This document shows, one piece after another, positions 3,446-57,386 of a stretch of DNA of 64,000 bases. The DNA comes from an uncultured Prochlorococcus sp. Its GTDB lineage: Bacteria > Cyanobacteriota > Cyanobacteriia > PCC-6307 > Cyanobiaceae. Under the pieces are notes generated by a model. It ran no database searches, was not told the origin of the DNA, and saw only the letters and a program-made list of their open reading frames with translations. The stretch is from assembly GCA_902621675.1 (NCBI GenBank), contig CACNMX010000001.1:1-64000 (forward strand). Reading direction: 5' to 3'. The position numbers and the translations under genes were made by a program. Every line of letters begins with the position of its first letter. Position 1 is the first letter of the stretch.

Positions 3446-4023
3446 TTTAAATAATCACTATCTATTTTTTCAATTAATTTAGAGGAAGATAATAAATCAT
3501 TAGTAATATACTTTAAATCTTTCAAATACTTTGAGTTTAATTTATGACCACTTTTAACTAAAATTGACATACTTAATCCTGCATTTATACCAGCATAATA
3601 ATCAGATATTTTATCACCTATCATTATTGATCTCTTAAGATCTATAGAATGTTCTGCTGCTGCTTTAAAAATCAATCCAGGATTTGGTTTTCTACAGTTA
3701 CAATTTGTTTTGTATATTTTAATTTTAGCTTCTGGATGATGAGGGCAAAAGTATACTGCATCTACTCTAATTTGTTTTAGGATAAATATGGATAACATGT
3801 ATTCATGCAATTTTTCTAAATCTTTTTCTTTATAAAATCCTCTAGCTATTCCAGCTTGATTTGTAATAATTATCAATTTGTAACCTAATTTATTAAACTT
3901 TCTTAATGCTTCAAATACTCCAGGTATTAATTCGAAATCTCTTATTTTACATACATACTTTTTCTCTTTATTAATAACCCCATCTCTATCAAGAAAGATG
4001 GCTTTAAAAAGTTTTTTAGACAT
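3442..4023 (-). CDS. gmhB: HAD-family D,D-heptose 1,7-bisphosphate phosphatase-like
   Basis: IFLDRDGVINKEKKYV, ITNQAGIARGFY, CPHHPEAKIKIYKTNCNCRKPNPG, MIGDKISDYYAGINAG. Confidence 0.88.
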   Translation of the reverse strand: MSKKLFKAIFLDRDGVINKEKKYVCKIRDFELIPGVFEALRKFNKLGYKLIIITNQAGIARGFYKEKDLEKLHEYMLSIFILKQIRVDAVYFCPHHPEAKIKIYKTNCNCRKPNPGLIFKAAAEHSIDLKRSIMIGDKISDYYAGINAGLSMSILVKSGHKLNSKYLKDLKYITNDLLSSSKLIEKIDSDYLK

Positions 4024-4732
4024 AAACTAGCTCATGTTCACATAAAAAATTAAAATCCTCTGGAATTCCAATATCTATAAAAGATCCATTTAAAATTACA
4101 CCTTTTACGGACTTATTTTTTTTTATTTCAATAGAAAGAAATTCTTCAAAGGAAAATATCTCAGATTTTATACCTTTAAAAACATTTTTATTTATCTTAT
4201 ATAAGCCAGTATTGATTAGCCCTTTTCCTGTAGAGCCTTTTTCTGAAAAGTTATTTATAAATGAGTTCTTATCAATTTTTACTCCACCATATCTTGAACG
4301 ATTGGAGACTTCTATTAAGCCTATTCTAATTAATTCGGAATTATTAATGTCTAATTTTTTTTTCATTAAATTTATATTGCCTGTTATTAAAGTATCACCA
4401 TTCATAACTAAGCACTCATTTTCAGAGATTTCATTAAGTGCATTTTTTATAGCCCCTCCGGTACCCAGTTGTTTTTTCTCAATTACATATTTAATTTTAA
4501 AATTTTTTGCCCATGGTTTTTTAATCTCCTCTAGAACTTGTTCATGGCCATTACCTAAAGCTAAAACAAAATTATTAATTCCTTTAGAAGATAATGATTT
4601 AAGGAGTATTTTTAGGAAGCATTTATTGTTGATTTGAGCCAAGCATTTTGGCTTGCCATTTAATAGTGGGGCTAATCTGGTACCTAAACCACCTGCAAGG
4701 ATAATGCAACTATTGTAATTAATGTCTCGCAT
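4016..4732 (-). CDS. hddC: Sugar nucleotidyltransferase, heptose-1-phosphate guanylyltransferase-like
   Basis: CIILAGGLGTRLAPLLNGKPKCLAQI; adjacent to hddA/gmhB-like genes. Confidence 0.8.
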   Translation of the reverse strand: MRDINYNSCIILAGGLGTRLAPLLNGKPKCLAQINNKCFLKILLKSLSSKGINNFVLALGNGHEQVLEEIKKPWAKNFKIKYVIEKKQLGTGGAIKNALNEISENECLVMNGDTLITGNINLMKKKLDINNSELIRIGLIEVSNRSRYGGVKIDKNSFINNFSEKGSTGKGLINTGLYKINKNVFKGIKSEIFSFEEFLSIEIKKNKSVKGVILNGSFIDIGIPEDFNFLCEHELVYV

Positions 4733-5516: not shown

Positions 5517-6351
5517 TTAAATTTTAGATATATTATCTTTAACAAAAGCTAGATTAATCTCAAGTTCTTCTGTATGTTTATTTGTTTTAGATCTTGCTGT
5601 TTGTAATATGAAATTTCCCTCATAATTTATTTTCTTTATGTTTCCAAACACTTTTGGAAAGTTAGTATCTCCTTCACCTAACCTTATTGTACTCCCAAAT
5701 AATTTTCTATCTTTGATATGAACATTAATTATTCTTTCTCCATATTCTTGAAACTCTTCATCAGGATCAAATCCTAGGGATGCGCTGTTTCCAGAATCAT
5801 AATTTATTCCGAAAAGATCCTTCTCAAAATGAGATATAAAGTTTTTTAGTATAGATGGTGAATAGTCAGACTCAAATGCTATTTTGATTTGCCTTTGGTT
5901 AAGGATTTCTGAAAAAGATAAAAGTGTACTCTTAAGAATTTTAAATTCTTTTTCACTATTTATTGATCCATTGTCTACTAAAGGTATAACTAATATATTT
6001 ATACCAATACTGCTGGCAGCATTAATAATTAATTTGAAATCATTAATTAATTCATTAAAAAAAAGCTCGCTCTTAGCTTTCCAAAAAGGTCTTTGCATGC
6101 AGCAATCTAAAGTTATTGAAGGAATTTTTATATGATGAGTTTCGGATGCCTTCAATATATGTTTTTTTGGATTTTTCCAATAAAAATGGATTTTGATGAA
6201 ATTTAGGATAATCTAAGGTCCATTCAATACATGAAAGTCCTAGTTTTCTTGCTAAGGGAAATTCTTCTAACCAATTGTTGAAAGGGAATGATTGAATTTG
6301 GTTGTTTACTAAAGGAGAAAGTCTTCCCTGCATAAATCCAATTTTATTCAT
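5517..6351 (-). pseudogene. Sugar phosphate isomerase/epimerase (TIM-barrel type) interrupted by a frameshift
   Basis: ORFs 6073..6351 and 5517..6155 join into one protein if the A7 run (plus-strand T7 at 6162-6168) is read as A6: ...FLLEKSKKHILKASETHHIKIPSITLDCCMQRPFW... Confidence 0.8.
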
Positions 6352-7814: not shown

Positions 7815-8822
7815 ATGAAATTAGATCCCGATTATCCTTTAAAACTTTTAAAAAGAGAAGTTCATTGTGATATTGAAAAATTTAAAATCCTTATTTCAAG
7901 AAAAAAAAATATAAATATTATATTTGATTTTAAAATTTCTCCTCCAACTTATGGAGATTGCATTGATACTCTTTTTTTAATAAGAATGCTATCTTCTTTA
8001 GGTAAAAAAGTTAGTATTGAATTTGTCAAAGGTGAATATAGAAAAGACTGGGAGTACCTTAATAAAGATAAATTTGCCAAAGAATTAATAAATATTGCAA
8101 ATTCACTTTTACCTAAGGAATGTATTATTAATGTCTTTGATAATAATAAATTTAGAATAAAAAAAGATAAAGATTTGCATAATCTTTTTTTTAACCAATT
8201 ACCTTTTTTTAAAAGAAATCAAATACCAGAAATATATATAAAAGCATTGGATTTAGCCTTTAAACTAAATAAAAATACTGCTAATAATGACTTTTTATTC
8301 ACCAGAAAAACTTTAGATAATATTAAGTATGAATTTATAAATAAAGAAAAATATATTTGTTTACCCCTAAGATATAATCCCTTTACTTCTCAATCAAGAA
8401 ATATTGGTGTTAAGGCATTAGAAATTATTGACTTAATTCGGAATTCAACTAATGCCAAAATTATGATAGTTTCAAATTTGGAGGGATGTAATTTTTATAG
8501 GAAAATGATATCAAAGGCATTCAATTCTAATATTTATTACTGTAAGGATTTCTCAAAATCTTTTATTGGGGATGTTGAAATAATATTAAAAAGTGTATTT
8601 TATCTTCAATACTATGGAGGAGGAATGCTTACTATTGCAAGAAACTCAGATATACCTTATTTAATATGTAATAGATATGCTAACCATGAATATCTTCTTA
8701 AAAAACAAAAAAAATTCCCTTGGTCTAATAATCTTCAAAAATATATTTTAAGTGATGAATACGACGTATTCATGAAAGCGCTGAAAAGTAATATTTCATT
8801 AATAAAGAAATTGACAGATTAA
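7815..8822 (+). CDS. Hypothetical protein, possibly glycosyltransferase-like
   Basis: 335 aa ORF; C-terminal LQYYGGGMLTIARNSDIPYLICN loosely resembles GT-B-type end motifs; no confident family. Confidence 0.5.
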   Translation: MKLDPDYPLKLLKREVHCDIEKFKILISRKKNINIIFDFKISPPTYGDCIDTLFLIRMLSSLGKKVSIEFVKGEYRKDWEYLNKDKFAKELINIANSLLPKECIINVFDNNKFRIKKDKDLHNLFFNQLPFFKRNQIPEIYIKALDLAFKLNKNTANNDFLFTRKTLDNIKYEFINKEKYICLPLRYNPFTSQSRNIGVKALEIIDLIRNSTNAKIMIVSNLEGCNFYRKMISKAFNSNIYYCKDFSKSFIGDVEIILKSVFYLQYYGGGMLTIARNSDIPYLICNRYANHEYLLKKQKKFPWSNNLQKYILSDEYDVFMKALKSNISLIKKLTD

Positions 8823-9928
8823 ATGATTTTGGAAATATCCATTGATTGTCTAATGCTATCGTCAATATCAACCTCATATCTATAACTTCCAGCTCTACCA
8901 ATACTAAAAACATTTTCTGGTTGTAAATTGTGGTATTTATCAGCAACAGCCTGCCATTTTTTCATCGGCATTGGATAATGTTTACCATTCATTGATGGTA
9001 TTTCCATACCAATTAATGAATGCGGAGATTTATGACGAGTAAATTTTTTATATTCAACTAATCTTGTAAATGGTTCATCCCCAGCAAAATAAATAAAATA
9101 TACATTATCAGGAAAAACATTCTCAGAAGGTAAGACAAATTTGATTAGATCTCTGCCAACAAAGGGTAATTCTCCATAAACATTTTCGAAAATATCACTT
9201 GGTGAAATAGTATTAATAATAATGTCGTATTTAAACCATTCTCCATTAAAAAAAACTCTTTTTTGCGGGATATCAAAAACCTCAATTTTAGTTGATAAAA
9301 GAACTTTGCAATTCTGAGTTGAAAATTCAAAATAAGGATCATATCCATTTTCATTTATTGGGTACCCAGATATTGATTGATCCCAAGCTGCCCTAGGTCC
9401 TTTTTTAAGTGCGATTCCTTTTGGCGACCACTTAAATGTATCAAAAAGTTTATTATCATCTATCTGCCACATTTTTTTGTTGTAATCTTTTACAAATTTT
9501 TTGTACAAAGTTTCTCCGATTGAACTAATCCAGTATTCTTCGAAATCACATGCTTTTTCAGGAGATTTAAGACAGGAAAGCTCAGTATTTATTTTTTCTT
9601 CATCAGGCATTTTAGGAATATCGTCTGCATTTATTGGAAAGTTATAGAAATTACTATCTTGAGATATATAAGTTATGAATTCATGTTCTTTACATCTTCT
9701 AATTGGCACAATCTCATCAAGATATTTATAAACCTCTTCATCTTGCGTTAAAAAATGCCTAGGCCCAAAGGTGTAAGGGTGTCCTCCGTACCATCTAGTT
9801 TTGTTTCCAGCCCCCAGAAAACTACTTTTTTCAATAAGCGTGACGTCATATAAAGGTTTCGCTAAAGATATTTGATGAGCAGCAGCACATCCAGCAAAAC
9901 CTCCTCCAATTATTAGAACTTTAATCAA
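8819..9928 (-). CDS. FAD-dependent UDP-galactopyranose mutase-like flavoprotein
   Basis: VLIIGGGFAGCAAAHQISL...DVTLIEKSSFLGAGNKT; NFPINADDIPKMP; MGRAGSYRYEVDIDD-like C-terminus (FSIGRAGSYRYEVDIDDSIRQSMDI). Confidence 0.72.
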   Translation of the reverse strand: MIKVLIIGGGFAGCAAAHQISLAKPLYDVTLIEKSSFLGAGNKTRWYGGHPYTFGPRHFLTQDEEVYKYLDEIVPIRRCKEHEFITYISQDSNFYNFPINADDIPKMPDEEKINTELSCLKSPEKACDFEEYWISSIGETLYKKFVKDYNKKMWQIDDNKLFDTFKWSPKGIALKKGPRAAWDQSISGYPINENGYDPYFEFSTQNCKVLLSTKIEVFDIPQKRVFFNGEWFKYDIIINTISPSDIFENVYGELPFVGRDLIKFVLPSENVFPDNVYFIYFAGDEPFTRLVEYKKFTRHKSPHSLIGMEIPSMNGKHYPMPMKKWQAVADKYHNLQPENVFSIGRAGSYRYEVDIDDSIRQSMDISKII

Positions 9929-10005
9929 TTTAAAATTATAAGTATCGATATATTATTGCATAAAATATATTATCAAGAATATGGGACTATTTTTTATTTA
10001 AATTC

Positions 10006-10959
10006 GTGTATTATGAAAACTGTTTAAAGTTAAAAAACTTTTGGGAAAAAAGTTTGGAAAATCATAATTCTAATTATATCTTTGTTATAGATGGAGCTTC
10101 AGGATTTTTGGCATATGAACTGTCTAATTTCTTATTAGACCTTAACTATAAAGTCATTTTAATAGGACGTTCTGACGTATCAAAATTTAAAAGAAAAAAT
10201 ATTCTTAAGAGATCAAATGTAGAGTATTTCAAGAATTATCAAAAGATACCAAATTTGGATAAAAATAAATCAATTTTTATTCATACCGCAGCTTCAACCC
10301 CAAATAATAATTTAAAAGGTGATCAAAATATTTTCTTGAAAAATTCAATAATAAGAAATGATATTGCTAAACATATGTTAAACAATCAATATCAACTTAT
10401 TATAAATATTTCATCAACCTCAGTTTATGAAAATGTAAAAGAAGGTATAGTCTATGAAAATCACAAAACTGTTCCTTCAAGTTTATATGGTTTATCAAAG
10501 TTACTTTCAGAAAATCAATTCTCATTAATTTCAAGATTCTCCTCATTTACTAATTTACTTCATTTAAGATTACCGGCAATTCTATCTAGAGAATCTAAAG
10601 GAATATTTATTTTAAGATTATTAGATAGTATAAAAAATAATGAATTAATTAAAATAAATTCTAGGCATGCACGTTTTAATAATTTAACAACATCTCGAGA
10701 TATAGGCAAAACCATTCTTAATTTTGTAGAAAATCACGAAAGTCTTCCAAAAGAATTATTTTTAAATATGTTTTCAAAAGACACAGTAAATTTATATGAT
10801 ATTATTTCATTTTTATCTAAAGAATTAGATAAAAAAATCCCAAAAATAGTATACGATAGCCATATAGCTTCTTTTTTAATAGGTAATAAGCAAAATTATG
10901 GGTTGACAAATAATAGTTTATTATTGGATATGATTAAAAATAATTTAGTAGGTAATTAA
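10006..10959 (+). CDS. NAD-dependent epimerase/dehydratase (extended SDR)
   Basis: YIFVIDGASGFLAYELSNFLLDLNYKVILIGRS; INISSTSVYENV; SLYGLSKLLSE; GTG start. Confidence 0.8.
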   Translation: MYYENCLKLKNFWEKSLENHNSNYIFVIDGASGFLAYELSNFLLDLNYKVILIGRSDVSKFKRKNILKRSNVEYFKNYQKIPNLDKNKSIFIHTAASTPNNNLKGDQNIFLKNSIIRNDIAKHMLNNQYQLIINISSTSVYENVKEGIVYENHKTVPSSLYGLSKLLSENQFSLISRFSSFTNLLHLRLPAILSRESKGIFILRLLDSIKNNELIKINSRHARFNNLTTSRDIGKTILNFVENHESLPKELFLNMFSKDTVNLYDIISFLSKELDKKIPKIVYDSHIASFLIGNKQNYGLTNNSLLLDMIKNNLVGN

Positions 10960-11724
10960 TTGGAAGAATTAATAGAAGAATTTAAAAAAAATGGTTTTTG
11001 CATTTTTAATAATGAAGATCTTGATTCTCATAAAATCCTAGCTAATTCACTGTCTACTTCTCTTGAGATTAAGGATAATACCTTTTCTGATTTACATCAT
11101 AAAATTGATAAATCAAAATTAAATGAATTTCGTCTAAAGTCATTTTCTGCATTAAACAGGTTACCCAATAAAAATAAAATATATTTTAATCAAGCAAGAA
11201 ACTTTCTGATGATGCTACTGGGACCAGATATATCTATTCAAAATAAACTAAATTTATCAATTCAAATTCCTTTAGACGATTCTTCCCTATTACCTCTTCA
11301 CACAGATACTATTGTTGGCGAATCAGCTTTTGAAGTTGTTGTTTGGATACCATTCACAAATGCATTTGAAAGTAATTCTATTTATCTCATACCTATCGAT
11401 AAAAGTAAAAAAATGATGTCAGAAATTCAGGATTACTCAAATTTAGGAATGCAAAAAATGGAGGATGATTACGAAATTTATAAGAAGTTTATTGAAATAA
11501 ATTCAAATCAAGTTTTAGTTTTTTCGCCAACTCTTTTTCATGGGAATGTCTTAAATCGAACTTCTGCAACAAGAATAAGCATTAATTGCAGATTTAAGAA
11601 TATTTTTGCTCCTGAAAGCCCAAATCCAGAAAGAAGGCTTGGAACTTTTTATGAGGTTTTTAATACATCTCCATTAACAGATATTGCTTTATCTTATGAA
11701 GATCCATATATTTCATCTCTATGA
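10960..11724 (+). CDS. Putative 2OG-Fe(II) oxygenase / phytanoyl-CoA dioxygenase-like protein of a carbohydrate cluster
   Basis: LPLHTDTIVGESAFEVVVWIPFTNAFESNSIYLIP with HxD and distal FSPTLFHGNVLNRTSATRISINCRF; TTG start. Confidence 0.68.
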   Translation: MEELIEEFKKNGFCIFNNEDLDSHKILANSLSTSLEIKDNTFSDLHHKIDKSKLNEFRLKSFSALNRLPNKNKIYFNQARNFLMMLLGPDISIQNKLNLSIQIPLDDSSLLPLHTDTIVGESAFEVVVWIPFTNAFESNSIYLIPIDKSKKMMSEIQDYSNLGMQKMEDDYEIYKKFIEINSNQVLVFSPTLFHGNVLNRTSATRISINCRFKNIFAPESPNPERRLGTFYEVFNTSPLTDIALSYEDPYISSL

Positions 11725-12149
11725 AACTATATTCCTATGTAACGACAAGAAAAATGGGTGATATTTTCTTACCTGTTCCTGCCCAAAATTCTGTTTTAAG
11801 AGAAGCAGCTAATAGGCTTGAAGTTAAATATATTTTGCCAAGGGTTGAACATTTTTATAAAGATTCATTTATCGAATTAAATACTCTTTTAAGAAAGGCT
11901 GATGAGAAATCAATTATAGGCATGTATTCATTTTTAATGTTACCCCTAGATATAAAAAAATTAAGAATGATCAATGATCTTCTATATAAAAAAAACTTAA
12001 GAATTTATTTTGCCCTTGAAAATAGGTTTTTTGAAGATATGAATGATATTAAAAACTTGTATAAAAGTCATTTATTAAGAAAAATTCAGTTAAAAAATTC
12101 CCCTTTATATAGTGAAATTAGAGATAATAAATATCGAGAAAAAATTTAA
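11721..12149 (+). CDS. Small 'sporadic carbohydrate cluster'-like protein of unknown function
   Basis: SYVTTRKMGDIFLPVPAQNSVLREAAN...YSFLMLPLDIKKLRMINDLLYKKNLRIYFALEN; resembles from memory the sporadic carbohydrate cluster protein family; follows the 2OG-oxygenase-like ORF with ATGA-type overlap. Confidence 0.55.
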   Translation: MKLYSYVTTRKMGDIFLPVPAQNSVLREAANRLEVKYILPRVEHFYKDSFIELNTLLRKADEKSIIGMYSFLMLPLDIKKLRMINDLLYKKNLRIYFALENRFFEDMNDIKNLYKSHLLRKIQLKNSPLYSEIRDNKYREKI

Positions 12150-12161: not shown

Positions 12162-12683
12162 TTATAAAATCACCTGGGAAATAACTGGAAAGTCGAGATT
12201 CTTTTTTGCATTAAGTTCTCCAAGCTCAATAACTACAGATAATCCAAGAACTTCTTTTTTTGCTTCTTTTATGATTTTTGAAACGCATTTAGCTGTTCCT
12301 CCGGTTGCTAGTAAGTCATCAATAATTATAAATTTTTGAAAATTTTTAATTGAATCTTTTTGGATCGAGAGTGAATTATTTCCATACTCTAAGCTATAAG
12401 ATTTAGTAAAGAGTTCTCCAGGTAATTTACCTGGTTTTCTTGCAACTATCATTGGTTTAGAAAGTTGTAATGAAATTGCTGTTGCGAATATGAAACCTCT
12501 TGCATCAATAGCAATTATCGCATCTGCATTCTTAAGCATTTCTGAACAACACATATCCAAAACTAATTTTTTGAATATTTCTGGTTCTCTTAAAACAGGT
12601 AAAATATCTTTAAACAAGATACCTTTTTTCGGGAAGTCAATATGATCCTCAATAAATTTTTTTAAGTAGTGTTCTGGTTCCAT
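12162..12683 (-). CDS. apt: Adenine phosphoribosyltransferase
   Basis: IDFPKKGILFKDILPVL; DARGFIFATAISLQLSKPMIVARKPGKLPG; IIDDLLATGGTAK PRPP motif. Confidence 0.93.
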   Translation of the reverse strand: MEPEHYLKKFIEDHIDFPKKGILFKDILPVLREPEIFKKLVLDMCCSEMLKNADAIIAIDARGFIFATAISLQLSKPMIVARKPGKLPGELFTKSYSLEYGNNSLSIQKDSIKNFQKFIIIDDLLATGGTAKCVSKIIKEAKKEVLGLSVVIELGELNAKKNLDFPVISQVIL

Positions 12684-12718
12684 TTTCTTTATAATTAAAT
12701 TAATAACAATTTAATGCA

Positions 12719-13510
12719 TTGATTGATTCTGGTAATAATTTACTTCATATTGCGATTTTATGTGCAATGCCTGAAGAAATAGGTACTGCATTAAGTAATC
12801 TTAAAAATATTTCAGAAAAAAGAAAGGGAGATCTAAAAATCTTTTCAGGGGAATGGATTAGTCCTGTAGATAACACTGTTATTTTTGTTTCAATAGCTTG
12901 GAGTGGTTGGGGAAAAGTAAGTGCATCAAGAGCTGCTACAAGGATATTAGACTCTACTATTAAAGGTAAGGCAGTTGATTTTTTAATTTTCACTGGAGTA
13001 GCTGGTTCAGCAAAATTTTCTTTAAATCAATGGGATATAGTCCTTCCAAATGAATTAGTTCAACATGATATGGATGCTAGCCCAATATATAAGAAATACG
13101 TAATTCCGGCTCTAAATAAATCTAGAATAAAGGTATCAGCTAAATTACTTGATTGGGCAAATAAATCAATATCAATGGATTTAAAAAAAAATAATTTAAA
13201 AAAATTTGGAAAGATTGAGGTTGGTTTAATAGCGACTGGAGATAAATTCATATCAGATAAAAATTTACTTGAAAATTTTTTAAAAGAATTACCTGGTTTA
13301 TGTGCCGTAGAAATGGAGGGTGCGGCGGTGGCTCAAGTTGCAACTCAAGAAAATATTCCATGGTTAATTTTGAGAGTAATATCTGATAACGCAGATGGTA
13401 ATGCAAAACAAAACTTTAATGATTTTTTAAATGAATATAAGAACTTTTCTTGGAATTTAATTGAAACTCTTTTATTGAATAGTAAAGAAATTTCTATACA
13501 AATTCTATAA
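12719..13510 (+). CDS. 5'-methylthioadenosine/S-adenosylhomocysteine nucleosidase-like
   Basis: HIAILCAMPEEIGTALSNL; FLIFTGVAGSAKFSLNQWDIVLPNELVQHDMDASP; AVEMEGAAVAQVATQENIPWLILRVISDNAD. Confidence 0.85.
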   Translation: MIDSGNNLLHIAILCAMPEEIGTALSNLKNISEKRKGDLKIFSGEWISPVDNTVIFVSIAWSGWGKVSASRAATRILDSTIKGKAVDFLIFTGVAGSAKFSLNQWDIVLPNELVQHDMDASPIYKKYVIPALNKSRIKVSAKLLDWANKSISMDLKKNNLKKFGKIEVGLIATGDKFISDKNLLENFLKELPGLCAVEMEGAAVAQVATQENIPWLILRVISDNADGNAKQNFNDFLNEYKNFSWNLIETLLLNSKEISIQIL

Positions 13511-13531
13511 ACTATAAATAATTATTCTAAT

Positions 13532-14392
13532 TTAACTTAGTTTGACACTTTTAAAAGAACTATTAAATTTAGATAAAATCTCTTTTTTAGAATTTTCATT
13601 TAAGGCATCAATTAACCCGCCCCTTAATAAAAATGAATATTTAATTCCCAATTGAGAATTCAATTTAAGATATGTAAAGATATCTGATTTTAATGAAGAA
13701 ATCCAAATATTTGTTAATTCATTATCTAAAAACTTTTCACTTAAAAATTTATTAAATATTTCTTTACTTACTCTTATTATTCCATGTTCTGTGGAGTAAG
13801 GTTTGCATCTATGCATTGAAGCGAATCCTCCTACAGAATAAATTGAACAAAATTTCTCACAATGAAATTCAGAATTTAATGAAATTAAATCATATAATTT
13901 TCGGTTATTTCCTAAAGACTGAATTTTTTCATGGGCAAACTCATATGATTTAATAAGAGAAAAATCATATGAATTAAAAAACTTCTTATCAACAATACAA
14001 ATACCTATTGAGGTGCCTATATTTATAATTACTAATTTTTTAAATTTTTCATTTGGGATCTTTTTTACTAAATAGGCCTGAATTATCATGTCATTTACAA
14101 TCACAATTTTATTTTTAATTGGAATTTCAATATTGATTTTTTTTTCTAAAGGAGCACAATAAATTTCATCTTTATCAGAGTTTACGTCGCCAGGAATCCC
14201 AACAATTATTTTTTGATAGTTTGAAAAATCTTTATGAACGTTTTTTAAGAATTCATTAATAGCTATATTTTTACTTAATAATCGCTTAATTAAAAAATGA
14301 GTCTTTGAACTTAATGAAAATTCAAACAAATCAATATGAGTGCCTCCTATATCTATTAAAAGATATTTATCATGATCTTCTGCCTTGTTCAT
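13532..14392 (-). CDS. ROK-family / glucokinase-like sugar kinase
   Basis: YLLIDIGGTHIDLFEF; IIVGIPGDVNSDKDEIYCAP; VIINIGTSIGICIVD. Confidence 0.6.
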   Translation of the reverse strand: MNKAEDHDKYLLIDIGGTHIDLFEFSLSSKTHFLIKRLLSKNIAINEFLKNVHKDFSNYQKIIVGIPGDVNSDKDEIYCAPLEKKINIEIPIKNKIVIVNDMIIQAYLVKKIPNEKFKKLVIINIGTSIGICIVDKKFFNSYDFSLIKSYEFAHEKIQSLGNNRKLYDLISLNSEFHCEKFCSIYSVGGFASMHRCKPYSTEHGIIRVSKEIFNKFLSEKFLDNELTNIWISSLKSDIFTYLKLNSQLGIKYSFLLRGGLIDALNENSKKEILSKFNSSFKSVKLS

Positions 14393-14541
14393 CTATTTAA
14401 TATTATTTTTATAGAATTTTAAACGGGAAATAGATTTTTCTTAACCAAGGAAATAATATTTCTTGATTTATAAATTCTTTGTAATTAATTAAAAATTAAA
14501 CTATAGTAGCAAATAAAAGAAATTTTACTTTTGAAAACTTA

Positions 14542-15798
14542 ATGCAACTTATTTATGACTACGAACCAGAAAAAGTTTTCAAAGATGTAGATGTATATTT
14601 TTATGGAGCTGGAACAGGATTCAGTAGTTATTCAAAAATTGGCATTGCTGCATTCAAATCTATAAATAAAAAGCCTGTTGCTTTTATAGATGACAATTTT
14701 ATAGGAAATTCAGATAAACTTTTTGATATTAAAGTTCTGAAACCTGAAGATGCAAAAAATCAAATAGAAAAATTAGGTCGAGACTACGTAATTGTTATTA
14801 CAAGTAATTATTTTGATTCTATAGCTGAAAGTATTTCTAAATTTAAATTAGCTAATAAGGCATATGGTTTAACTCCATTAAAGAAAAACATAACTGAAAA
14901 AAGCTGTTCAACTTTAATTTCATATGCTGATGCTTTGCGTAAATTAGAAGGACATCATTCTAAAAGTCAGCAATATGATAGAAAAATTCAAACACTAAAA
15001 TCTGAAAAAATTAATATTGCTTTTTTAGATATTCAATTAACTGAAAGATGCACAATGAAATGTAAAGATTGTTCAAATTTAATGCAATATTATGAAAAAC
15101 CTATTAACGCAGATCATGATGAACTCGTAACTTCTTTAAATAATTTACTAGAAGTTATTGATGATCTAAGTGAGGCTAGGTTACTTGGAGGCGAACCATT
15201 TCTATACAAACAAATAGATGAAATTCTAGAAATTCTTGTAAAATCTGAAAAAGTACATAATATATATATTTATACTAATGGAACAATAAAAGTTAAAAGA
15301 AATATAATAGAGGCTTTAAAAAATAAAAAAATAACTGTTGAAATTACCGATTATGGAGAAAAACTTTCTAGAAATAAAGAAAATTTGATTAATTCTTTTG
15401 AAGAAGCTTCTATAAATTTTGTTTCTCACAAACCTCAAAATTGGACTGATTCTGCAAGGATAGTCCAAAATAATTTAGATGAAAAAAACTTAACTCAAAT
15501 GTTTAAAGCATGTTGTGTAAATGATGTTTTCACATTACTTCATGGCAATCTTTATCATTGTCCTTTTTCCGCAAATGTTGTGAATTTAAAGGCTCTTTTT
15601 CCCAGTGATAAAGAATTTGTTAATTTAAAAAACTTATCATTTGAGGATTTAAAGATTAATCTAAAGAGATTTATTTTTGGCAGGCCATATTTGGAGTCAT
15701 GTAAACTTTGTTTGGGGAGGGATTTCACACAACCATTGGTAGAGCCTGCATTACAAATCAAGAAGAATATTCCTTTGCCTGATTTTATTAGAAAATAG
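14542..15798 (+). CDS. Radical SAM protein with N-terminal Rossmann-like (PglD-N-like) domain
   Basis: LTERCTMKCKDCSNL (CxxxCxxC) ; LGGEPFLY; Cys-rich C-terminus (ACCVNDV, YHCPF, CKLCLG); N-terminal DVYFYGAGTGFSSYSKIGIAAFKSINKKPVAFIDDN. Confidence 0.85.
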   Translation: MQLIYDYEPEKVFKDVDVYFYGAGTGFSSYSKIGIAAFKSINKKPVAFIDDNFIGNSDKLFDIKVLKPEDAKNQIEKLGRDYVIVITSNYFDSIAESISKFKLANKAYGLTPLKKNITEKSCSTLISYADALRKLEGHHSKSQQYDRKIQTLKSEKINIAFLDIQLTERCTMKCKDCSNLMQYYEKPINADHDELVTSLNNLLEVIDDLSEARLLGGEPFLYKQIDEILEILVKSEKVHNIYIYTNGTIKVKRNIIEALKNKKITVEITDYGEKLSRNKENLINSFEEASINFVSHKPQNWTDSARIVQNNLDEKNLTQMFKACCVNDVFTLLHGNLYHCPFSANVVNLKALFPSDKEFVNLKNLSFEDLKINLKRFIFGRPYLESCKLCLGRDFTQPLVEPALQIKKNIPLPDFIRK

Positions 15799-17209: not shown

Positions 17210-17848
17210 TTAAAAATCCTTTATTAGTTTTGCTGGGACTCCTGCATATATTCCAGGTTTGAGTATGTTTTTAGTAACAACTGCACCGCAGCCAATTAAA
17301 ACATTACTACATATTTCAACATGATCTTTAATAGTAGATCCAGCTCCTATATATACATGAGATTGAATAATAACATTACCGCAAATTGTACAATTTGGTC
17401 CTACTATACAATAATCTTCGATTTTTGCTTCGTGCCCTACATATGTCCCAGTATTTATAAGAGATAAAAATCCAATTCGCACTTTATAACCAAGGAAAAC
17501 ATAATCAAAAATTAAACTACCTGCTTTTATTGATTTAAGATTAGTTTCAATAATCGACCTACTTGAAATAAGTTTAATAAAGTCATTTTTTTGCAAATTA
17601 TATGAGAGTAGTTTCACCTTCTTATCTAAGAAAGTCTTTTCTGAGCCTATTCCAGTAACAAATTTATACCCTAACTCTTTATAAGAAGAGGAATCTGAAA
17701 ATTCACCTAAACATTTATACCCTTCAATAGTTTCTCCTTTTTGAATTCTATTATCTAAGAATCCAACGAGGTTAAGTTTTTTTGATCGTTTTAAAATATG
17801 AAAAATAGATCTTGAGGCACCTGATCCTCCTAAAGAAATTAGATTCAT
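17210..17848 (-). CDS. Sugar O/N-acyltransferase, PglD/NeuD family (left-handed beta-helix)
   Basis: LISLGGSGASRSIFHILK...; hexapeptide repeats IGFLSLINTGTYVGHEAKIEDYCIVGPNCTICGNVIIQSHVYIGAGSTIKDHV; C-term GVPAKLIKDF. Confidence 0.9.
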   Translation of the reverse strand: MNLISLGGSGASRSIFHILKRSKKLNLVGFLDNRIQKGETIEGYKCLGEFSDSSSYKELGYKFVTGIGSEKTFLDKKVKLLSYNLQKNDFIKLISSRSIIETNLKSIKAGSLIFDYVFLGYKVRIGFLSLINTGTYVGHEAKIEDYCIVGPNCTICGNVIIQSHVYIGAGSTIKDHVEICSNVLIGCGAVVTKNILKPGIYAGVPAKLIKDF

Positions 17849-18528
17849 AACTTGATCGAGTTATCGGGATGCCACCAGTCGTAATAACCAGTATAACCAG
17901 CTTCTTGGAATAACTCTAGCCATTCATCTACATGCAAATAACATCTTCCACCTGTTGCCCATTTGTCTATTATTTCTTTCTGTGCATTATTCTTATATGC
18001 CGCAATACGAATATAGGAATTTTTTTTTGTGATCCTCTCAATTTCTGAGATTGCAATCATGGTTTCTTTTTTACTTAAAAAGTTATGAAGTGAATTAATA
18101 CTTATAGTATGTTCTATCGAATTAGTTTTAAGAGGAATAGATGTTGCATTGCAATTAATGTAAAGTATCTTTTTGTCTTTTATAGATTCACGTAAAGCAT
18201 ATAAAGATGCGTCTATACCAAAACACTTAACCTCATCAATTTCGCTTACTAAGTCATAAAGTAAAAAGCCTTTAGCGCATCCTATTTCGCAAATACTTTC
18301 GCCTTTTAAAACTTTAAACTGTTTAATAATTCTTTTTGCAACTGGTTTCCACCTACCATCATAGTAATAACCTCCATAGCCTTGTTCTCTATTCCCATCG
18401 TAGTAATGCCTACCATATATTCTTGCATAACTTTTATTTAAATCTGAAACTTTTATCCTCGTATCTAATTTTCTTTTGGATTTAGGTAAATCATTTAATA
18501 GATTTTCCATTCTTATTGCTTTATTCAT
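17845..18528 (-). CDS. Class I SAM-dependent methyltransferase
   Basis: LKGESICEIGCAKGFLLYDL; HTISINSLHNFLSKKE. Confidence 0.85.
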   Translation of the reverse strand: MNKAIRMENLLNDLPKSKRKLDTRIKVSDLNKSYARIYGRHYYDGNREQGYGGYYYDGRWKPVAKRIIKQFKVLKGESICEIGCAKGFLLYDLVSEIDEVKCFGIDASLYALRESIKDKKILYINCNATSIPLKTNSIEHTISINSLHNFLSKKETMIAISEIERITKKNSYIRIAAYKNNAQKEIIDKWATGGRCYLHVDEWLELFQEAGYTGYYDWWHPDNSIKL

Positions 18529-18736
18529 TTATGTCCTTCCATTTGATTTTATTTTTTGTTGGATAAATATTCTCTGGGGTAAAAAATTTTGGGATGTTTT
18601 CTTTATGAATCTTATATTTTTTATCACAACTGGAACATTTTAAAAGGTTTTTTCCCAAAAGTATAATTTCGCCTTTGCAAATAGGACATTGCAAAAAATC
18701 AATAAACGTATTTATAAATCCATTACTCATTTTCAA
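18521..18736 (-). CDS. Trm112-like small zinc-ribbon protein
   Basis: LQCPICKGEIILLGKNLLKCSSCDKKYKIHKENIPKF; CxxC...CxxC. Confidence 0.75.
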   Translation of the reverse strand: MKMSNGFINTFIDFLQCPICKGEIILLGKNLLKCSSCDKKYKIHKENIPKFFTPENIYPTKNKIKWKDINE

Positions 18737-19652
18737 GAATCCATTTATCTAAAAGAGTTAAGTTAATTCCATTGTTTTCCAATAATTTCTCTCTATCAAA
18801 AATTTCAAATATGTATTTTTTGTCTAAGCATAAATTTTCTAACTCAATTCTAAATTTTGTTTTAACAAGTATACCTGCTATAAATTCAAATAAACCTCCT
18901 GATTCAAAGTGTTCTTCAATTATGAGGACTTTTTTTATTGAAGATTCAATTAATATATTGATTAGTTCTAAAAGAGTTTCAGCTGAAATTTCTGAAATGA
19001 TTATGTGGCAAATTGTTTTGGAAGTTTTCTTTTTCTTTATATGGGTGTCAATCATTGATGATATGGCGCCGGTACTGACTATACATTTTGATGAGTTTAG
19101 AATCCCATTTAAAAAAATATTTGTTTTTATTTCTTTTGTTTCAGGGATATCTGGCTCACCCCCTTTACATAATCTTATATAAGAAGGATTTTGATTCTTT
19201 CCATTAAGTTTATCCCATGCTTTTGTGAGACAATCTTCTGCATTGATAGGAGAAAAAGGTGAATAAATATTCATATTTGGGATGCTCCTCATTAAGGCGA
19301 TATCCTCATATGCATGATGAGTAGATCCAAGCTTGTCGTAAGCAAGTCCACCACCAACACCAATTAAAATTAAAGATTGGTTATTAATACCGATATCAAC
19401 TCTTATCTGCTCATAAGCCCTCATAATTAAAAATGGTATTATTGTATAAACTACTGGCTTCATACCTTCTGATGCTAATCCTGCTGCAACCCCTATCATA
19501 TTTTGCTCAGCAATCCCACAATTAATAAACCTATCTGGAAATTTTTCAATAAATTCATCAAATATTCGAAATCCAATATCTCCAGCTAAAAGTATTAGTT
19601 TTTCGTCTTGACTAGCAATCTCTAGGAGTTTTCTAGCAATACTATTTCTCAT
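18723..19652 (-). CDS. Transketolase, C-terminal subunit
   Basis: LILLAGDIGFRIFDEFIEKFPDRFINCGIAEQNMIGVAAGLASEGMKPVVYTI. Confidence 0.9.
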   Translation of the reverse strand: MRNSIARKLLEIASQDEKLILLAGDIGFRIFDEFIEKFPDRFINCGIAEQNMIGVAAGLASEGMKPVVYTIIPFLIMRAYEQIRVDIGINNQSLILIGVGGGLAYDKLGSTHHAYEDIALMRSIPNMNIYSPFSPINAEDCLTKAWDKLNGKNQNPSYIRLCKGGEPDIPETKEIKTNIFLNGILNSSKCIVSTGAISSMIDTHIKKKKTSKTICHIIISEISAETLLELINILIESSIKKVLIIEEHFESGGLFEFIAGILVKTKFRIELENLCLDKKYIFEIFDREKLLENNGINLTLLDKWILENE

Positions 19653-19654
19653 TA

Positions 19655-20446
19655 TTATCCTCCTAACTCCTTAAGTGCTTTTGCAAGTTCATCATCTTTA
19701 ATTTTTCTATGATGCCACTTAGGTACTTTTTCCATAAAACTTATACCTTTCCCTTTAATAGTTTCTGCGATAATAACAACTGGTTCCTTATATTTATTTT
19801 GGAGGAATTTGTAAATTATTGGTATTAGACTTTCTATACAATGTCCATCTACTTCTTTTGCTTTTAAACCTATAGCTGCCAGTCTTTTTTGTACGTTACT
19901 AATTGATAAAATGTTATCTGTAAAATCTAGAGATTCTTGTTTATTGTTATCAATAATTACCAATAAATTTGATAATTTATGCTGAGACATAAACATAAAT
20001 CCTTCCCAAATTGAACCTTCATTTGATTCTCCATCTCCTATTACACAGATAATTTTTTTATTTCTATTTCCTAGGGCTTTTCCGCATGCTACCGATAAAC
20101 CATGACCAAGTGATCCTGTGGACCATGTAATAGATCTTAGGGAACCTTTCTTAGGATGGCCGCCGAATAAAGATCCATTTTTGTAAAAGTCATCAAGATC
20201 ATTTATTTTAATTTCACCAATTCTTACTAAAGTTACTAACCATGCTAATAAGCAATGTCCTTTACTTAAAATAAATTCAAAATTATAAATTTCTTTTAGA
20301 GCATAAGCACTCGACATTATATCTATTACGCTTAGAGAACCTCCTATATGTCCTCCTTTAGCTTTATGGACAATATTTGTTAAGTCAATACGACTTTGAT
20401 ATGAGAATAATTTCGCTTTTTGAAAATAATTCTTCAAATCTTTCAT
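19655..20446 (-). CDS. Transketolase, N-terminal (TPP-binding) subunit
   Basis: IVHKAKGGHIGGSLSVIDIMSSAY; FILSKGHCLLAWL; CVIGDGESNEGSIWEG. Confidence 0.9.
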   Translation of the reverse strand: MKDLKNYFQKAKLFSYQSRIDLTNIVHKAKGGHIGGSLSVIDIMSSAYALKEIYNFEFILSKGHCLLAWLVTLVRIGEIKINDLDDFYKNGSLFGGHPKKGSLRSITWSTGSLGHGLSVACGKALGNRNKKIICVIGDGESNEGSIWEGFMFMSQHKLSNLLVIIDNNKQESLDFTDNILSISNVQKRLAAIGLKAKEVDGHCIESLIPIIYKFLQNKYKEPVVIIAETIKGKGISFMEKVPKWHHRKIKDDELAKALKELGG

Positions 20447-21341
20447 TATCTAATAACTTTATTGAGGCAATTAAGTAGAGTTTTGCTTTTTTAAGCTGTG
20501 TATATAAAATTTTAGCACGATTAGTATTTCTACTTGGATCGGCATATATTCTTACTTTCCATCGTTCTGATAAAAACTCATTCATAATAATTAATGACCA
20601 TTTTATTGAGAATAGTGAATTATAAATATTCAAATTAGATTTATCATCTTTAGATATTTTTTCATTTACAAAGTAATTTGACCAATCTTTAAAAATTTCA
20701 CTTCCTTTTAAGTTTCTTGGATGTATTAAGAAATCAATATGTTGCTTAATAGGCGAGTCAAAGCCTGCATATTCAAGATCTACTAATCTAAGTTCATTAT
20801 TTAAATCTAATACGCAATTATGAATTCCTGAATCGGCGTGACTAAAAACATGGCTTGATTTTGGATTTATTTTTTCAAGGTGAGGCACTAATTTATTAAG
20901 AAAAAAAGTTTCTAATTTTTCTATAAAAAGTTTATATTCTTTTTCAATGTCAAAGCTTAATTTGTTTTGTTTGTGGTTTTTAAATTTTTCCTTTATCTGA
21001 TTGATGCAAATATTATTATTGATTAATGCTTCTTTAGCAAATAGGTTATTTCTATTTTTATTACAAGTAGAACGATGAATATTTTTTATTAAATTCAGAT
21101 ATTTTATAAAGTGAACCTTACTTAAGTATTTTGTATTTGGCATATATTGATATAAAAGCTTTAAATTTTTAGAATCTTTATTTACAAGAGGAACTGTAAA
21201 CATTTTTGAAAAATTTGTTAGATAATTATGAATAAAATACTCATTATAAAATTGAATTTGATTATTTTGGGGAAATGATTTTTCAAAAAAAAGTTGATTG
21301 TTTATCTGTATTATCTTTGATTTACTATTTCCAGATTTCAT
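20385..21341 (-). CDS. APH/choline-kinase-like phosphotransferase
   Basis: HVFSHADSGIHNCVLDLNNELRLVDLEYAGFDSP (Brenner-like HxDxxxxN motif). Confidence 0.75.
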   Translation of the reverse strand: MKSGNSKSKIIQINNQLFFEKSFPQNNQIQFYNEYFIHNYLTNFSKMFTVPLVNKDSKNLKLLYQYMPNTKYLSKVHFIKYLNLIKNIHRSTCNKNRNNLFAKEALINNNICINQIKEKFKNHKQNKLSFDIEKEYKLFIEKLETFFLNKLVPHLEKINPKSSHVFSHADSGIHNCVLDLNNELRLVDLEYAGFDSPIKQHIDFLIHPRNLKGSEIFKDWSNYFVNEKISKDDKSNLNIYNSLFSIKWSLIIMNEFLSERWKVRIYADPSRNTNRAKILYTQLKKAKLYLIASIKLLDNERFEELFSKSEIILISKSY

Positions 21342-21342
21342 T

Positions 21343-21987
21343 TTATCTTAAAAGGTTTGATATTGTTTTCCAATTTTCAACTTCAACTAAATTCCCCTTT
21401 TTTTTATATTGATCGCAATTATTAATGTTTTTATTATTGCCACTAAAAAGTATGTGTTTGGTATAGGAAAATTCTTTTCCTGAAGCAAAATATCTATTAT
21501 GTATTTTCTCTAAATCATCAATTATTATTTTTGGATTAATTACTTTCAAGAAATCAATTTTTTCATCGAAAGTATCACAAAAAATGATTGATTTAATTCC
21601 TTTATGGAGATGATTTTTATCTATCAATTTAAAAATTCTTGATTGTGCAATCTCCAAAATATTAGTTTCCTTGGAATCTTTAATTCCAAACTTTGTTTTA
21701 TGGCTAACAAGATATATTTCATGATCTTTGCTTATTAGTTGTTTTATTACTTCTATACAATTTTTGTAAAAGATAATTTTGTTACTTATATCTGAATAAA
21801 TGTCACCTTGAATAAATTGCCAATTGTTGTCACCCAACTCATTCTTTATTTTGAATTTTATGTAATTAACATTTAAATTTAAAATATTGTCTTCTAAATT
21901 AAGACTATACTTCCTTGTCTTTAATGAATTTTCAATCGATTTTCTATAGTCCACCAAAGTGTTATCAATATCGATTGCAATTTTCAT
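21343..21987 (-). CDS. HAD-superfamily hydrolase
   Basis: MKIAIDIDNTLVDYRKSIE; IYLVSHKTKFG; INPKIIIDD. Confidence 0.7.
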   Translation of the reverse strand: MKIAIDIDNTLVDYRKSIENSLKTRKYSLNLEDNILNLNVNYIKFKIKNELGDNNWQFIQGDIYSDISNKIIFYKNCIEVIKQLISKDHEIYLVSHKTKFGIKDSKETNILEIAQSRIFKLIDKNHLHKGIKSIIFCDTFDEKIDFLKVINPKIIIDDLEKIHNRYFASGKEFSYTKHILFSGNNKNINNCDQYKKKGNLVEVENWKTISNLLR

Positions 21988-22931
21988 GAGATATTTTGAG
22001 ATTTTAGATGTTTAACTGAAAAACATGTATTATTTTTATTCAAATTTCCTGCTCTGTAAGTTTCTATTATCTCTGAAATTGCCGAATCTACATTTTTTTC
22101 AGGCTTAAATCCATACTTTAAAAGTTTCTCTGAACATTGCCTATATGATCTAGGATCATTACTTTCAAGGATATTGATTTTACAATGTGGTAATTTTGAA
22201 ACTACTTTTTTGGCTATATCTAAGATAGAAATATTTTCAAAACCTGCATTGAAAAATCCTGATTTTATTTGATTTTCTTTACCGAGGAAAAATTCATAAA
22301 CTCTACAAATATCATCAATATGAATGTTAGGCCTTATTTGGTCCCCACCAAAAACAGTAATGGTTCCTTTTTCTAAAGCAGAATAGGTAAGTATATTTAC
22401 TGCAACATCTAAACGCATTCGAGGGGAAACACCACAAACAGTTGCTGGCCTTATACAAGCTATATGCATTTTGTCTTGGTAACTTAAAAAAACTCTTTCT
22501 GCAACCATTTTTGTTTTGTTATAAGCACTTATAGGAATTAAAGGCGTCTCCTCATTAACCTTTGGTCTATCGCTTACTCCATAAACACTGCCTGAGCTTG
22601 CAAATAAAAATTGTTTGACTTCAGCTTCAACACTTAATTGAGCTAATAATTGGCTTCCTAGAACATTAACTTCCCAACTTAATTGAGGATTAAGATCTAC
22701 GAGTGGATCATTTGCAATATTTGCTAAGTGAATAACACAATCTATATTCTCTAAATGTGATTTATTTAAGTTCCTTATGTCACAAACAATTTTGTCTAAG
22801 TTTTTGTGCGATTTTAGATAATCTCCAAACCAATTAGTATCTATTGACCTTACATAATGCCCTTTATCTAGTAATTTAGGGACCAAAACAGAACCCTTAT
22901 AGCCGTTGCCACCTGTAACAAGAATTTTCAT
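21984..22931 (-). CDS. NAD-dependent sugar epimerase/dehydratase
   Basis: MKILVTGGNGYKGSVLVPKLLDKGHYV; ASSGSVYGVS; SAYNKTKMVAERV. Confidence 0.9.
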   Translation of the reverse strand: MKILVTGGNGYKGSVLVPKLLDKGHYVRSIDTNWFGDYLKSHKNLDKIVCDIRNLNKSHLENIDCVIHLANIANDPLVDLNPQLSWEVNVLGSQLLAQLSVEAEVKQFLFASSGSVYGVSDRPKVNEETPLIPISAYNKTKMVAERVFLSYQDKMHIACIRPATVCGVSPRMRLDVAVNILTYSALEKGTITVFGGDQIRPNIHIDDICRVYEFFLGKENQIKSGFFNAGFENISILDIAKKVVSKLPHCKINILESNDPRSYRQCSEKLLKYGFKPEKNVDSAISEIIETYRAGNLNKNNTCFSVKHLKSQNIS

Positions 22932-22980
22932 TAGATAATAATTTTTCTTATTTTTGCATAGTCTTTTTATCTTTGTCTAT

Positions 22981-24501
22981 TTATGAAAATGAAAGGATTA
23001 ATTTTTCTTTTATTGAATATAGATCGATAGGTTTGTTACCCATATTTTCTACTGCTAGGCTTGATACACAACATCCTAAAGCTGCAGTCTCCATAATTGT
23101 ATTACCTGAAGATATACCAACTGACATTATTGCGAGTAAAGAATCCCCAGCTCCAGTCACATCAACAGGATTTACTGTAAGAGCGGGAAAAGCCTGACTT
23201 ACATATTGATCATCTTTATTATTTTCATAAACTATGAATCCATCTCCACCTAACTTCATAAGGAGATTTTTTGACTTTGTTTTTTTCATTAAATTCTGGC
23301 TTAATATTTCTAGTCCTGTCGCCTTGTCTTGTAAAGATATCCTTGCTTCTCTTTCATTGGGAAATATGAGAGTACATTCCTCTAGCTTTGTAATTAAACC
23401 AACTTGGCTGCTACATTGAACATCTCCAAAAACAAAAATATTCTCTTTTTTCGCTACTTCTCTTATTGTTTTAAGTATCTTTTGGGTAACTATTCCATAT
23501 ACAAAATCAGAAATTATAATCCCATTACATTTCTTTGAAAAATCAATTATCTTTTTTATTATTTCCTTTTCGATTTGTTTTGAAATTTGATGATCTTCTA
23601 ATTTACTTACTCTAAATAATTTTTGATTATCTACTACGTATCTTTTCTTGAAAGTTGTGGGTCTAGTTGAATCATAAATTATTCCGCTGCCAATATTTTT
23701 ATCTTTAATTGTACTTTCAACCCAATTTGCGTTCTCATCTTCGCCAACTACTGATATTAAGTTGCAAGATGCACCTAATGCTTTTACATGGGAGGCTACG
23801 ACTCCTGCACCTCCCAAAAATTTCCTAGATTCTAGTTCTTTAACTACAATCACAGGAGCTTCGGCACTCATGCCAATAGCTTCGCAAGCTATGTATTGAT
23901 CTATTATTAAATCTCCAATTACTAAAATATTTGCTTTTTTAAAATTATCAGTTGAAGAAATTAGATCATCAAATGAAATCTTCTGTCTTTTGCAGGCTTC
24001 TCTAAATTGATCTCTTCTTTTTCGTGATAAATTAGTTTCAGATTCATTTAATAAATCAGTATTATTGTAATGAATTTCTCCTGCATAGAATCTAACTTGT
24101 TTATTCATATTTTTCATAAAAGATATAGCTTTTCTAATGTTTATTTCTTTATTCGTTTCGTATTCTGTACCAAGAATTAGTTTTTCAGGATAGATAGACT
24201 TTGTAGCCTCATAAAGATCATCTTTTTCTAAAAGAACTAAATAATCTGCTAAACCCAAAAGCTCTAATGAAGCGGCCCTCTCAGTTTGAGTATATTGAAA
24301 TCTTCTTTTTCCATTCTCATAAGAATCAGGAATAACAGCAATGTAGAGTTTTTTCCCTTGTTTCTTTGCATATTTAAGGTACCTTATGTGACCATGGTGA
24401 ACAGTATTAAAATGTCCATATCCCAAAACAGAATCCTTAGATGGCTTTATATCTCTTAATCTGATTATCTCTGTTTTATTTGGAATATTGTTGTTTGGCA
24501 T
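22981..24501 (-). CDS. Bifunctional cytidylyltransferase-PfkB sugar kinase (HldE/RfaE-like, nucleotidyltransferase domain N-terminal)
   Basis: N-term GYGHFNTVHHGHIRYLKYAKKQGKKLYIAVIPD; C-term ILVIGDLIIDQYIACEAIGMSAEAPVIVV...VTGAGDSLLAIMSV. Confidence 0.85.
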   Translation of the reverse strand: MPNNNIPNKTEIIRLRDIKPSKDSVLGYGHFNTVHHGHIRYLKYAKKQGKKLYIAVIPDSYENGKRRFQYTQTERAASLELLGLADYLVLLEKDDLYEATKSIYPEKLILGTEYETNKEINIRKAISFMKNMNKQVRFYAGEIHYNNTDLLNESETNLSRKRRDQFREACKRQKISFDDLISSTDNFKKANILVIGDLIIDQYIACEAIGMSAEAPVIVVKELESRKFLGGAGVVASHVKALGASCNLISVVGEDENANWVESTIKDKNIGSGIIYDSTRPTTFKKRYVVDNQKLFRVSKLEDHQISKQIEKEIIKKIIDFSKKCNGIIISDFVYGIVTQKILKTIREVAKKENIFVFGDVQCSSQVGLITKLEECTLIFPNEREARISLQDKATGLEILSQNLMKKTKSKNLLMKLGGDGFIVYENNKDDQYVSQAFPALTVNPVDVTGAGDSLLAIMSVGISSGNTIMETAALGCCVSSLAVENMGNKPIDLYSIKEKLILSFS

Positions 24502-24509
24502 CTTACAAA

Positions 24510-25148
24510 TTATTTTTTAAAGTAATGATTTCTATTAATTACTTTCCCTTCTTCAGGCTTATTATTACAAAGCCATTGCATACAAATATGTCCTACTAAT
24601 AATTGAACATCTTCCGATATTTGCATGTCATTTATATCAAAGTGTATAGGGTGAGAAGCAATTTTTTTTGCTTTCCCCCCATCAAAACCAAGGATAGCAA
24701 AAGTTTTAAGTCCTAATTTATTACCAGTATTTATTGCATTTAATATATTTGGGGAGTTGCCGCTTCCAGATAAAGCTATCAATAAATCACTTTTATTACC
24801 TTTTACAAGGATTTGATTAGAGTAAATATTTTCATAACCAATATCATTCGCAAGACATGTCGCAATAGCCACATTTGAACCAAGTGCTTCAACTTTTAGC
24901 CCAGGCATTCGCCCATCTTCTCTTGTACATCCAATACCATAATTAAAATCATTTGCGATATGATTTGCATTTGCAGCACTTCCTCCATTGCCACATAGAA
25001 AAACGTTTTTCTCATTCATCCATGCATCTCGTAAGTTTTCTGCTAACTCTTGAATAAGAAATATATTTTCCTCTGTAAAGCAATTTTTTAAATTATCTAA
25101 ATAATTAAAAGCGTCTTTTAAAAATTTTTCTTTAGATTGACTAATCAT
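24510..25148 (-). CDS. SIS-domain phosphoheptose isomerase-like
   Basis: NVFLCGNGGSAANANHIANDFNYG; LIALSGSGNSPNILNAI. Confidence 0.85.
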   Translation of the reverse strand: MISQSKEKFLKDAFNYLDNLKNCFTEENIFLIQELAENLRDAWMNEKNVFLCGNGGSAANANHIANDFNYGIGCTREDGRMPGLKVEALGSNVAIATCLANDIGYENIYSNQILVKGNKSDLLIALSGSGNSPNILNAINTGNKLGLKTFAILGFDGGKAKKIASHPIHFDINDMQISEDVQLLVGHICMQWLCNNKPEEGKVINRNHYFKK

Positions 25149-57357: not shown

Positions 57358-57386
57358 TTTTGTATTATTACTTGTTCAATTTGAAA

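Follow-up and report, generated by a model that had tools for sequence, protein, structure and literature searches.

An oxygenase and a partner of predicted recombinase fold in a split-transketolase cassette of bacteria and tailed phage

Which sugar would an oxygenase and a protein of 142 amino acids help to make when their genes stand side by side in a surface-glycan locus, and which other genes belong with them? The question is raised by two genes, here called O (10960-11724) and P (11721-12149), in the first 64,000 nucleotides of contig CACNMX010000001.1 from an uncultured Prochlorococcus (GCA_902621675.1; 1,177,735 bases in 47 contigs, completeness 73 %). This whole stretch, the window in what follows, represents an island for surface glycans in a genome of the Prochlorococcus type. 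We report three things that are new in this analysis: the real set of conserved partners of O-P, built around a split transketolase; a copy of this cassette on tailed-phage contigs; and, from structure prediction, a recombinase fold for P. The two genes themselves are:

10960..11724, plus strand: O, SpoChoClust_2 oxygenase, predicted to be of the PhyH type and to use 2-oxoglutarate (2OG) and Fe(II) (TIGR04324)
11721..12149, plus strand: P, SpoChoClust_1, 142 amino acids, predicted serine-recombinase catalytic-domain fold (TIGR04323, AlphaFold, Foldseek)

The O-P pair and its conserved cassette

The initial annotation of this DNA had likened the two proteins to these families, and the hidden Markov model search agrees. 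O matches TIGR04324 at 267.1 bits (1.5e-79, cut-off 150), its residues 6-249 covering positions 2-248 of a profile of 248, and P matches TIGR04323 at 95.6 bits (2e-27, cut-off 55) over profile positions 1-121 of 122. The supposed sporadic spread is real as well: O lies above its cut-off in 4 of 197 related genomes (the source genome counted) and P is found in the same 4, always paired with O, with two of the four P matches below the TIGR04323 cut-off.

An alignment scan of 84,980 species genomes with O gave 80 loci from Pelagibacteraceae, other Pseudomonadota, Actinomycetota, Cyanobacteriota, Myxococcota, Chloroflexota, Planctomycetota and one metagenome-assembled genome labelled Euryarchaeota. 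Adding the window and three Prochlorococcus loci and removing one duplicate resulted in a set of 83 loci, which together contain 87 O genes. For 83 of these genes, P either overlaps with O or begins no more than 23 base pairs (bp) from it. In the remaining four, P is 496 and 667 bp off in two, the contig ends in one (L034) and P lies inside an over-extended open reading frame (ORF) in the last (L072). P directly follows O in essentially all loci, so that the tight coupling proposed from the gene junctions is not due to chance. The junctions are also as described, 10959/10960 having no gap and O and P sharing four bases (11721-11724). All 54 aligned P sequences match TIGR04323 at E <= 0.01. A weak TIGR04323 match in a frame of 609 amino acids (G180) was considered as a recombinase fusion and dropped, as it proved to be a chance match in a chemotaxis-type protein.

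In the O tree the window O falls in a divergent, well-supported set of six (100/97) that also holds L029, L086, one of the two O genes of L090 and the Prochlorococcus loci L026 and L028. Its nearest relative is the O of L029, at 42 % identity. The four Prochlorococcus copies do not form one clade, for which lateral transfer would be the simple reading. At some loci a divergent O-P pair accompanies a canonical one (L044 13468-14674, L085 16007-17186, L090 9372-10519), suggesting that the two are paralogues with different substrates.

The carbohydrate-cluster setting of O-P is likewise borne out. The genes that make up this setting in the window lie at 17845-25148 on the minus strand, outside the block 7815-12149 that the initial annotation had delimited:

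17845..18528, minus strand: M, class I S-adenosylmethionine (SAM) methyltransferase (PF13847/PF08241)
18723..19652, minus strand: C, transketolase, pyrimidine-binding half (PF02779, 96 bits)
19655..20446, minus strand: N, transketolase, thiamine-diphosphate-binding half (PF00456, 75 bits)
20385..21341, minus strand: K, APH-type phosphotransferase-like protein (PF01636 matches within the family)
21343..21987, minus strand: H, HAD-like hydrolase (weak PF12710 in a family member)
21984..22931, minus strand: S, extended short-chain dehydrogenase/reductase (SDR) of the nucleoside diphosphate-sugar epimerase/dehydratase type (PF01370, 118.6 bits)
22981..24501, minus strand: E, HldE-like protein with swapped domain order (TIGR02199 at residues 22-118, TIGR02198 at 185-500)
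24510..25148, minus strand: A, GmhA-like SIS-domain isomerase (TIGR00441, 105.8 bits, below its cut-off)

Partners were counted in the 41 loci with at least 8 kilobases (kb) on either side of O, which we call full-flank loci; eight of them (L101-L108) are Bradyrhizobium and not independent. N and C stand within 10 kb of O-P in 40 of the 41, the exception being a Pelagibacteraceae locus (L093). The other partners follow with M and S in 37 loci each, E in 34, H in 29, K in 27 and A in 25. In the gene maps the order S-(H)-K-N-C-O-P-M recurs, E and A being found near it. The end of C often adjoins O (a median of 32 bp away), M homologues usually come after P (the two are fused in L100) and H is fused to K in many loci. 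The real conserved partners of O-P are N, C, the HldE-like E, SDRs and M, often joined by the H/K pair and GmhA. S alone carries little weight because SDRs are common in any glycan cluster.

From their sequences N and C are predicted to be the two halves of a split-type transketolase, having the thiamine-diphosphate motif and the catalytic His and Glu: the catalytic His columns and the DG of the GDG motif are invariant in N, and the glutamate of the AEQ motif is present in 68 of 68 homologues of C. E falls short of HldE membership, both of its domains scoring below the equivalog cut-offs, and its nucleotidyltransferase domain precedes the PfkB kinase domain, the reverse of the kinase-then-nucleotidyltransferase order; its family in related loci measures about 505 amino acids. 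Few relatives have a split N (about 7 of 119), and at least 4 of those that do lack O-P. O-P nearly always implies N-C and not the reverse, since N-C also occurs without O-P. Three Prochlorococcus loci with a split transketolase and no O-P (L145, L146 and L147, from G013, G012 and G070) have it near SDR, aminotransferase or other sugar genes. Literature searches on transketolase together with glycan biosynthesis gave nothing specific.

In the window O-P lies about 6 kb from the rest of the cassette and on the opposite strand, within the same island, while in another Prochlorococcus locus (L028) N-C-H-K-O-P are still contiguous. The window pair appears to have been separated from its partners.

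Two tailed-phage contigs from IMG/VR, L149 (IMGVR_UViG_3300047552_000915, 3254-24003) and L150, also carry the cassette. The phage order is S-E-A-S, an extra methyltransferase-like ORF, an HNH endonuclease, N-C-O-P-M and then the terminase and portal genes (terminase large subunit phrog_38, 6.6e-45; SU10-type portal PF23899, 1.1e-34). N, C, O, P and M are contiguous except for a short gap before M, and each E domain has a gene of its own, one ahead of N and the other beyond the terminase gene. This copy defines a near-minimal cassette, without H and K. With the whole set present in a tailed phage, next to its terminase and portal genes, the cassette appears to move as a unit.

Predicted structures of O and P

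The AlphaFold model of O has a predicted local distance difference test (pLDDT) score of 96.2, and its Foldseek matches are the PhyH-type oxygenases PtlH, GriE, ThoJ and SyrB2. The metal ligands H114, D116 and H194 are kept in 56 of 56 homologues and the candidate 2OG-binding residue R205 in 55 of 56. This is the PhyH-type pattern HxD...H plus Arg, from which we predict a 2OG-Fe(II) oxygenase. In this enzyme family, hydroxylation rather than halogenation is to be expected where the second ligand is Asp and not Ala or Gly. O has Asp (D116) at this position, and hydroxylation is thus its favoured chemistry.

The recombinase-like fold of P, which the initial annotation had missed, emerges from the predicted structure. 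The model, made with 54 homologues, has a pLDDT of 91.2 and a predicted template modelling score of 0.81. Ranks 1 to 33 of its Foldseek matches in the PDB are all serine recombinases (probability 0.99-1.00, E from 4e-5), and the unrelated folds that follow have a probability of 0.87 and below. Serine recombinases are again on top in the viral library, where poxvirus F16 is also listed. With the register taken from secondary structure, position 10 matches the nucleophile Ser10; 44 of the 54 sequences have Arg there and 6 have Lys, and no conserved Arg is found around positions 71-76 in the same set. The D-R-x-x-R stretch of recombinases becomes Y-S-x-F-Q-L-P in P. Q22 is invariant and Y6, P18, E43, S70 and E100 are nearly so; by the same register, Tyr6, Gln22 and Glu43 take what we presume to be the places of Tyr6, Gln19 and Asp36 of gamma-delta resolvase. 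A serine-recombinase catalytic-domain fold without the nucleophilic Ser and the catalytic Arg residues is well supported by the model.

Sequence comparison gives no such signal. PF00239 has no match to P or its homologues in Pfam scans, an hhalign comparison of the P profile with 15 resolvase domains reaches a probability of 0.26, within the range of column-shuffled controls, and a profile search of PDB sequences with P returns no recombinase chain. We dropped the attempt at a proof from sequence, hhalign being equal to the shuffled controls and the profile search empty. The fold of P is well supported but common descent is not proven, as the structure matches are strong and sequence methods show nothing.

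One explanation for this discrepancy is that P and the serine recombinases have converged on a small alpha/beta fold without common descent. The hhalign value, not above that of some shuffled controls, and the absence of recombinase chains from the profile search would be expected in that case, and the TM-scores of P are just 0.5-0.6 by query length. We nevertheless regard convergence as rather unlikely. The best 33 PDB matches all belong to one class with a clear drop to the next, unrelated fold, the same class leads in the viral library, and the order of strands and helices agrees, with Tyr, Gln and an acid at corresponding places as read from secondary structure. Pox_F16, moreover, is matched weakly (0.025) by 3 of the 54 P members, a number that no other Pfam family reaches, and poxvirus F16 (OPG061) is described as a predicted inactivated serine recombinase in a passage of PMC4304020 that cites Senkevich et al. 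2011.

It is also conceivable that P itself catalyses a reaction, the recombinase-like fold serving as the scaffold of, say, a sugar isomerase, lyase or hydrolase, and that it feeds O or is fed by it. Its active site would then be made up of S/T9-R10, P18, Q22, E43 and E100, which are located towards the C-terminal ends of the strands. The conserved Y6, P18, Q22, E43, S70 and E100 do fall around the old recombinase active site by secondary-structure order, and the P-methyltransferase fusion in L100 is of a kind common for pathway enzymes. However, P has no motif of any known enzyme class and no recognised cofactor site, and a pure binding or oligomerising role would conserve the same residues. 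We therefore hold an active site in P to be a doubtful proposition.

A proposed pathway to a nucleotide-activated surface sugar

We hypothesize that O and P carry out the tailoring step in a mobile pathway of several genes. Its product would be an unusual sugar, activated with a nucleotide, probably heptose-like and destined for a surface glycan; we give this reading an even chance of being correct. N-C, with its predicted catalytic residues in place, would transfer a two-carbon ketol unit to yield a dedicated ketose phosphate. The GmhA-like A and the HldE-like E, by the families to which they are related, would convert this into an activated sugar, which one or two SDRs might then oxidise or epimerise. 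O, given its active-site residues, would hydroxylate a C-H bond of the sugar. P, by its pairing and predicted fold, would be the obligate partner of O: it could be a subunit by which the substrate is held or presented, or an enzyme with a chemistry other than recombination that takes the product of O directly as its substrate. Finally, M may cap a hydroxyl by methylation.

Several points weigh against this pathway. We infer every substrate, the order of the steps and the role of P. GmhA (A) is missing from 16 and E from 7 of the 41 full-flank loci, so that a heptose is not forced by the data. A split transketolase also occurs without O-P in G012, G013, G046 and G070. The kinship of P with recombinases comes from a predicted structure, the hhalign probability of 0.26 being no better than that of some shuffles. 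Since the window O belongs to the divergent subclade, its substrate may differ from that of canonical members.

An alternative is that the cassette makes a branched-chain or higher-carbon sugar. N-C would add a two-carbon unit to a keto sugar, O and M would decorate the branch, and the GmhA-like and HldE-like proteins would serve a separate heptose. The association with O-P is far closer for N and C (40 of 41) than for HldE (34 of 41) or GmhA (25 of 41), the gene immediately preceding O is usually C rather than E or A, and the phage keeps N, C, O, P and M together apart from the short gap before M. The phage copy, however, retains both E domains and A, which suggests that all of these proteins act in the same pathway, and we consider a branched-chain or higher-carbon sugar rather unlikely.

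Within the heptose-like pathway that we prefer, we propose, with less confidence than the pathway itself, that P may be an ex-recombinase domain recruited to sugar biosynthesis. With the 2OG oxygenase it would perform or enable a new step in a split-transketolase pathway common to bacteria and tailed phage, leading to an undescribed class of surface sugar. If a recombinase fold does serve in metabolism, a domain that rearranges DNA would have been put to use in sugar chemistry, which would be rare; poxvirus F16 is the closest precedent we found. In any event, two families known by co-occurrence alone can now be placed in a defined cassette, and its other members are open to joint expression and assay. 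The cassette occurs in surface-glycan loci of Prochlorococcus and Pelagibacter, which are among the most abundant cells of the ocean. Such surface glycans have been discussed as phage receptors (PMC11898729), and a phage with the whole pathway suggests a role in phage-host contact.

Neighbouring genes and known systems

The block that had been proposed as a unit comprises three further ORFs:

7815..8822, plus strand: orphan ORF, weakly conserved neighbour of O-P (no family match)
8819..9928, minus strand: G, UDP-galactopyranose-mutase-like flavoprotein (PF03275, 121.9 bits)
10006..10959, plus strand: s, divergent extended SDR directly upstream of O (PF01370, 42.4 bits)

All five ORFs of the block are present with the coordinates and strands first assigned to them, but as a conserved unit the block breaks down. 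ORF 7815-8822, which has no match in the Pfam or NCBIfam scan, has a homologue beside O-P only in L027 (28 % identity). G homologues are found in 8 of 82 other O-P loci, mostly Pelagibacteraceae and often beside an s-like SDR. That G is Glf-like holds as a relationship, PF03275 being passed, and does not extend to the equivalog, as its 89 bits against TIGR00031 are far below the cut-off of 303.75. The order s-O-P is a shared arrangement, since an s-like SDR directly precedes O-P in L029 as well, the locus closest to the window O. None of the three is a constant partner of O-P.

Downstream of O-P, an adenine phosphoribosyltransferase, an MTA/SAH (methylthioadenosine/S-adenosylhomocysteine) nucleosidase, a ROK-like protein and a radical SAM protein are grouped at 12162-15798. 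These were dropped as pathway members, being found in 0 of 82 other O-P loci; the set could recycle 5'-deoxyadenosine from the radical SAM enzyme. Elsewhere in the island, a second heptose-type set was recognised by eye at 2420-4732 (GHMP-kinase-like protein, GmhB-like HAD protein and nucleotidyltransferase), as was a second GmhA-like gene at 35064-35636. At 5517-6155 and 6073-6351, two ORFs that overlap on the minus strand seem to be parts of a single gene of the sugar-isomerase type, broken by a frameshift or a sequencing error. A tRNA-Ala(GGC) lies at 2041-2113 within the island and a tRNA-Arg(TCT) at 57386-57461 near its far end.

To place the cassette among known systems we start from the NCBIfam families TIGR04324 and TIGR04323, whose curated cut-offs the window O and P both pass, adjacent and in the expected order. 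These families are set by sequence and co-occurrence, and their model names give no function, fold of P or partner pathway; none of the papers searched uses 'sporadic carbohydrate cluster' or LIC12192. The window pair differs from other members in belonging to the divergent subclade.

The GmhA-HldE-GmhB route of heptose activation shares with the cassette a GmhA-like isomerase and an HldE-like kinase and nucleotidyltransferase, and SDRs are also frequent. The cassette differs from it in that its matches are below the equivalog cut-offs and the HldE domains are swapped, and it adds the split transketolase, the oxygenase, P and the methyltransferase.

O has the predicted fold and the His-x-Asp...His plus Arg pattern of the PhyH-type oxygenases (PtlH, GriE, ThoJ, SyrB2 and phytanoyl-CoA hydroxylase) but is only about 13-17 % identical to them. 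To our knowledge, the substrates of these relatives are amino acids, terpenoids or acyl chains and not sugars.

With the serine recombinase catalytic domain (gamma-delta/Tn3 resolvase, Sin, TP901-1, Bxb1; PF00239) P shares the predicted fold and the order of strands and helices. Unlike these proteins it has no nucleophilic Ser, catalytic Arg, DNA-binding domain or PF00239 match, and it lives in sugar operons. Poxvirus F16, which localises to nucleoli according to a passage of PMC4304020, differs from P in being a eukaryotic virus protein without a metabolic partner and resembles it in what would be a recombinase fold without recombinase chemistry.

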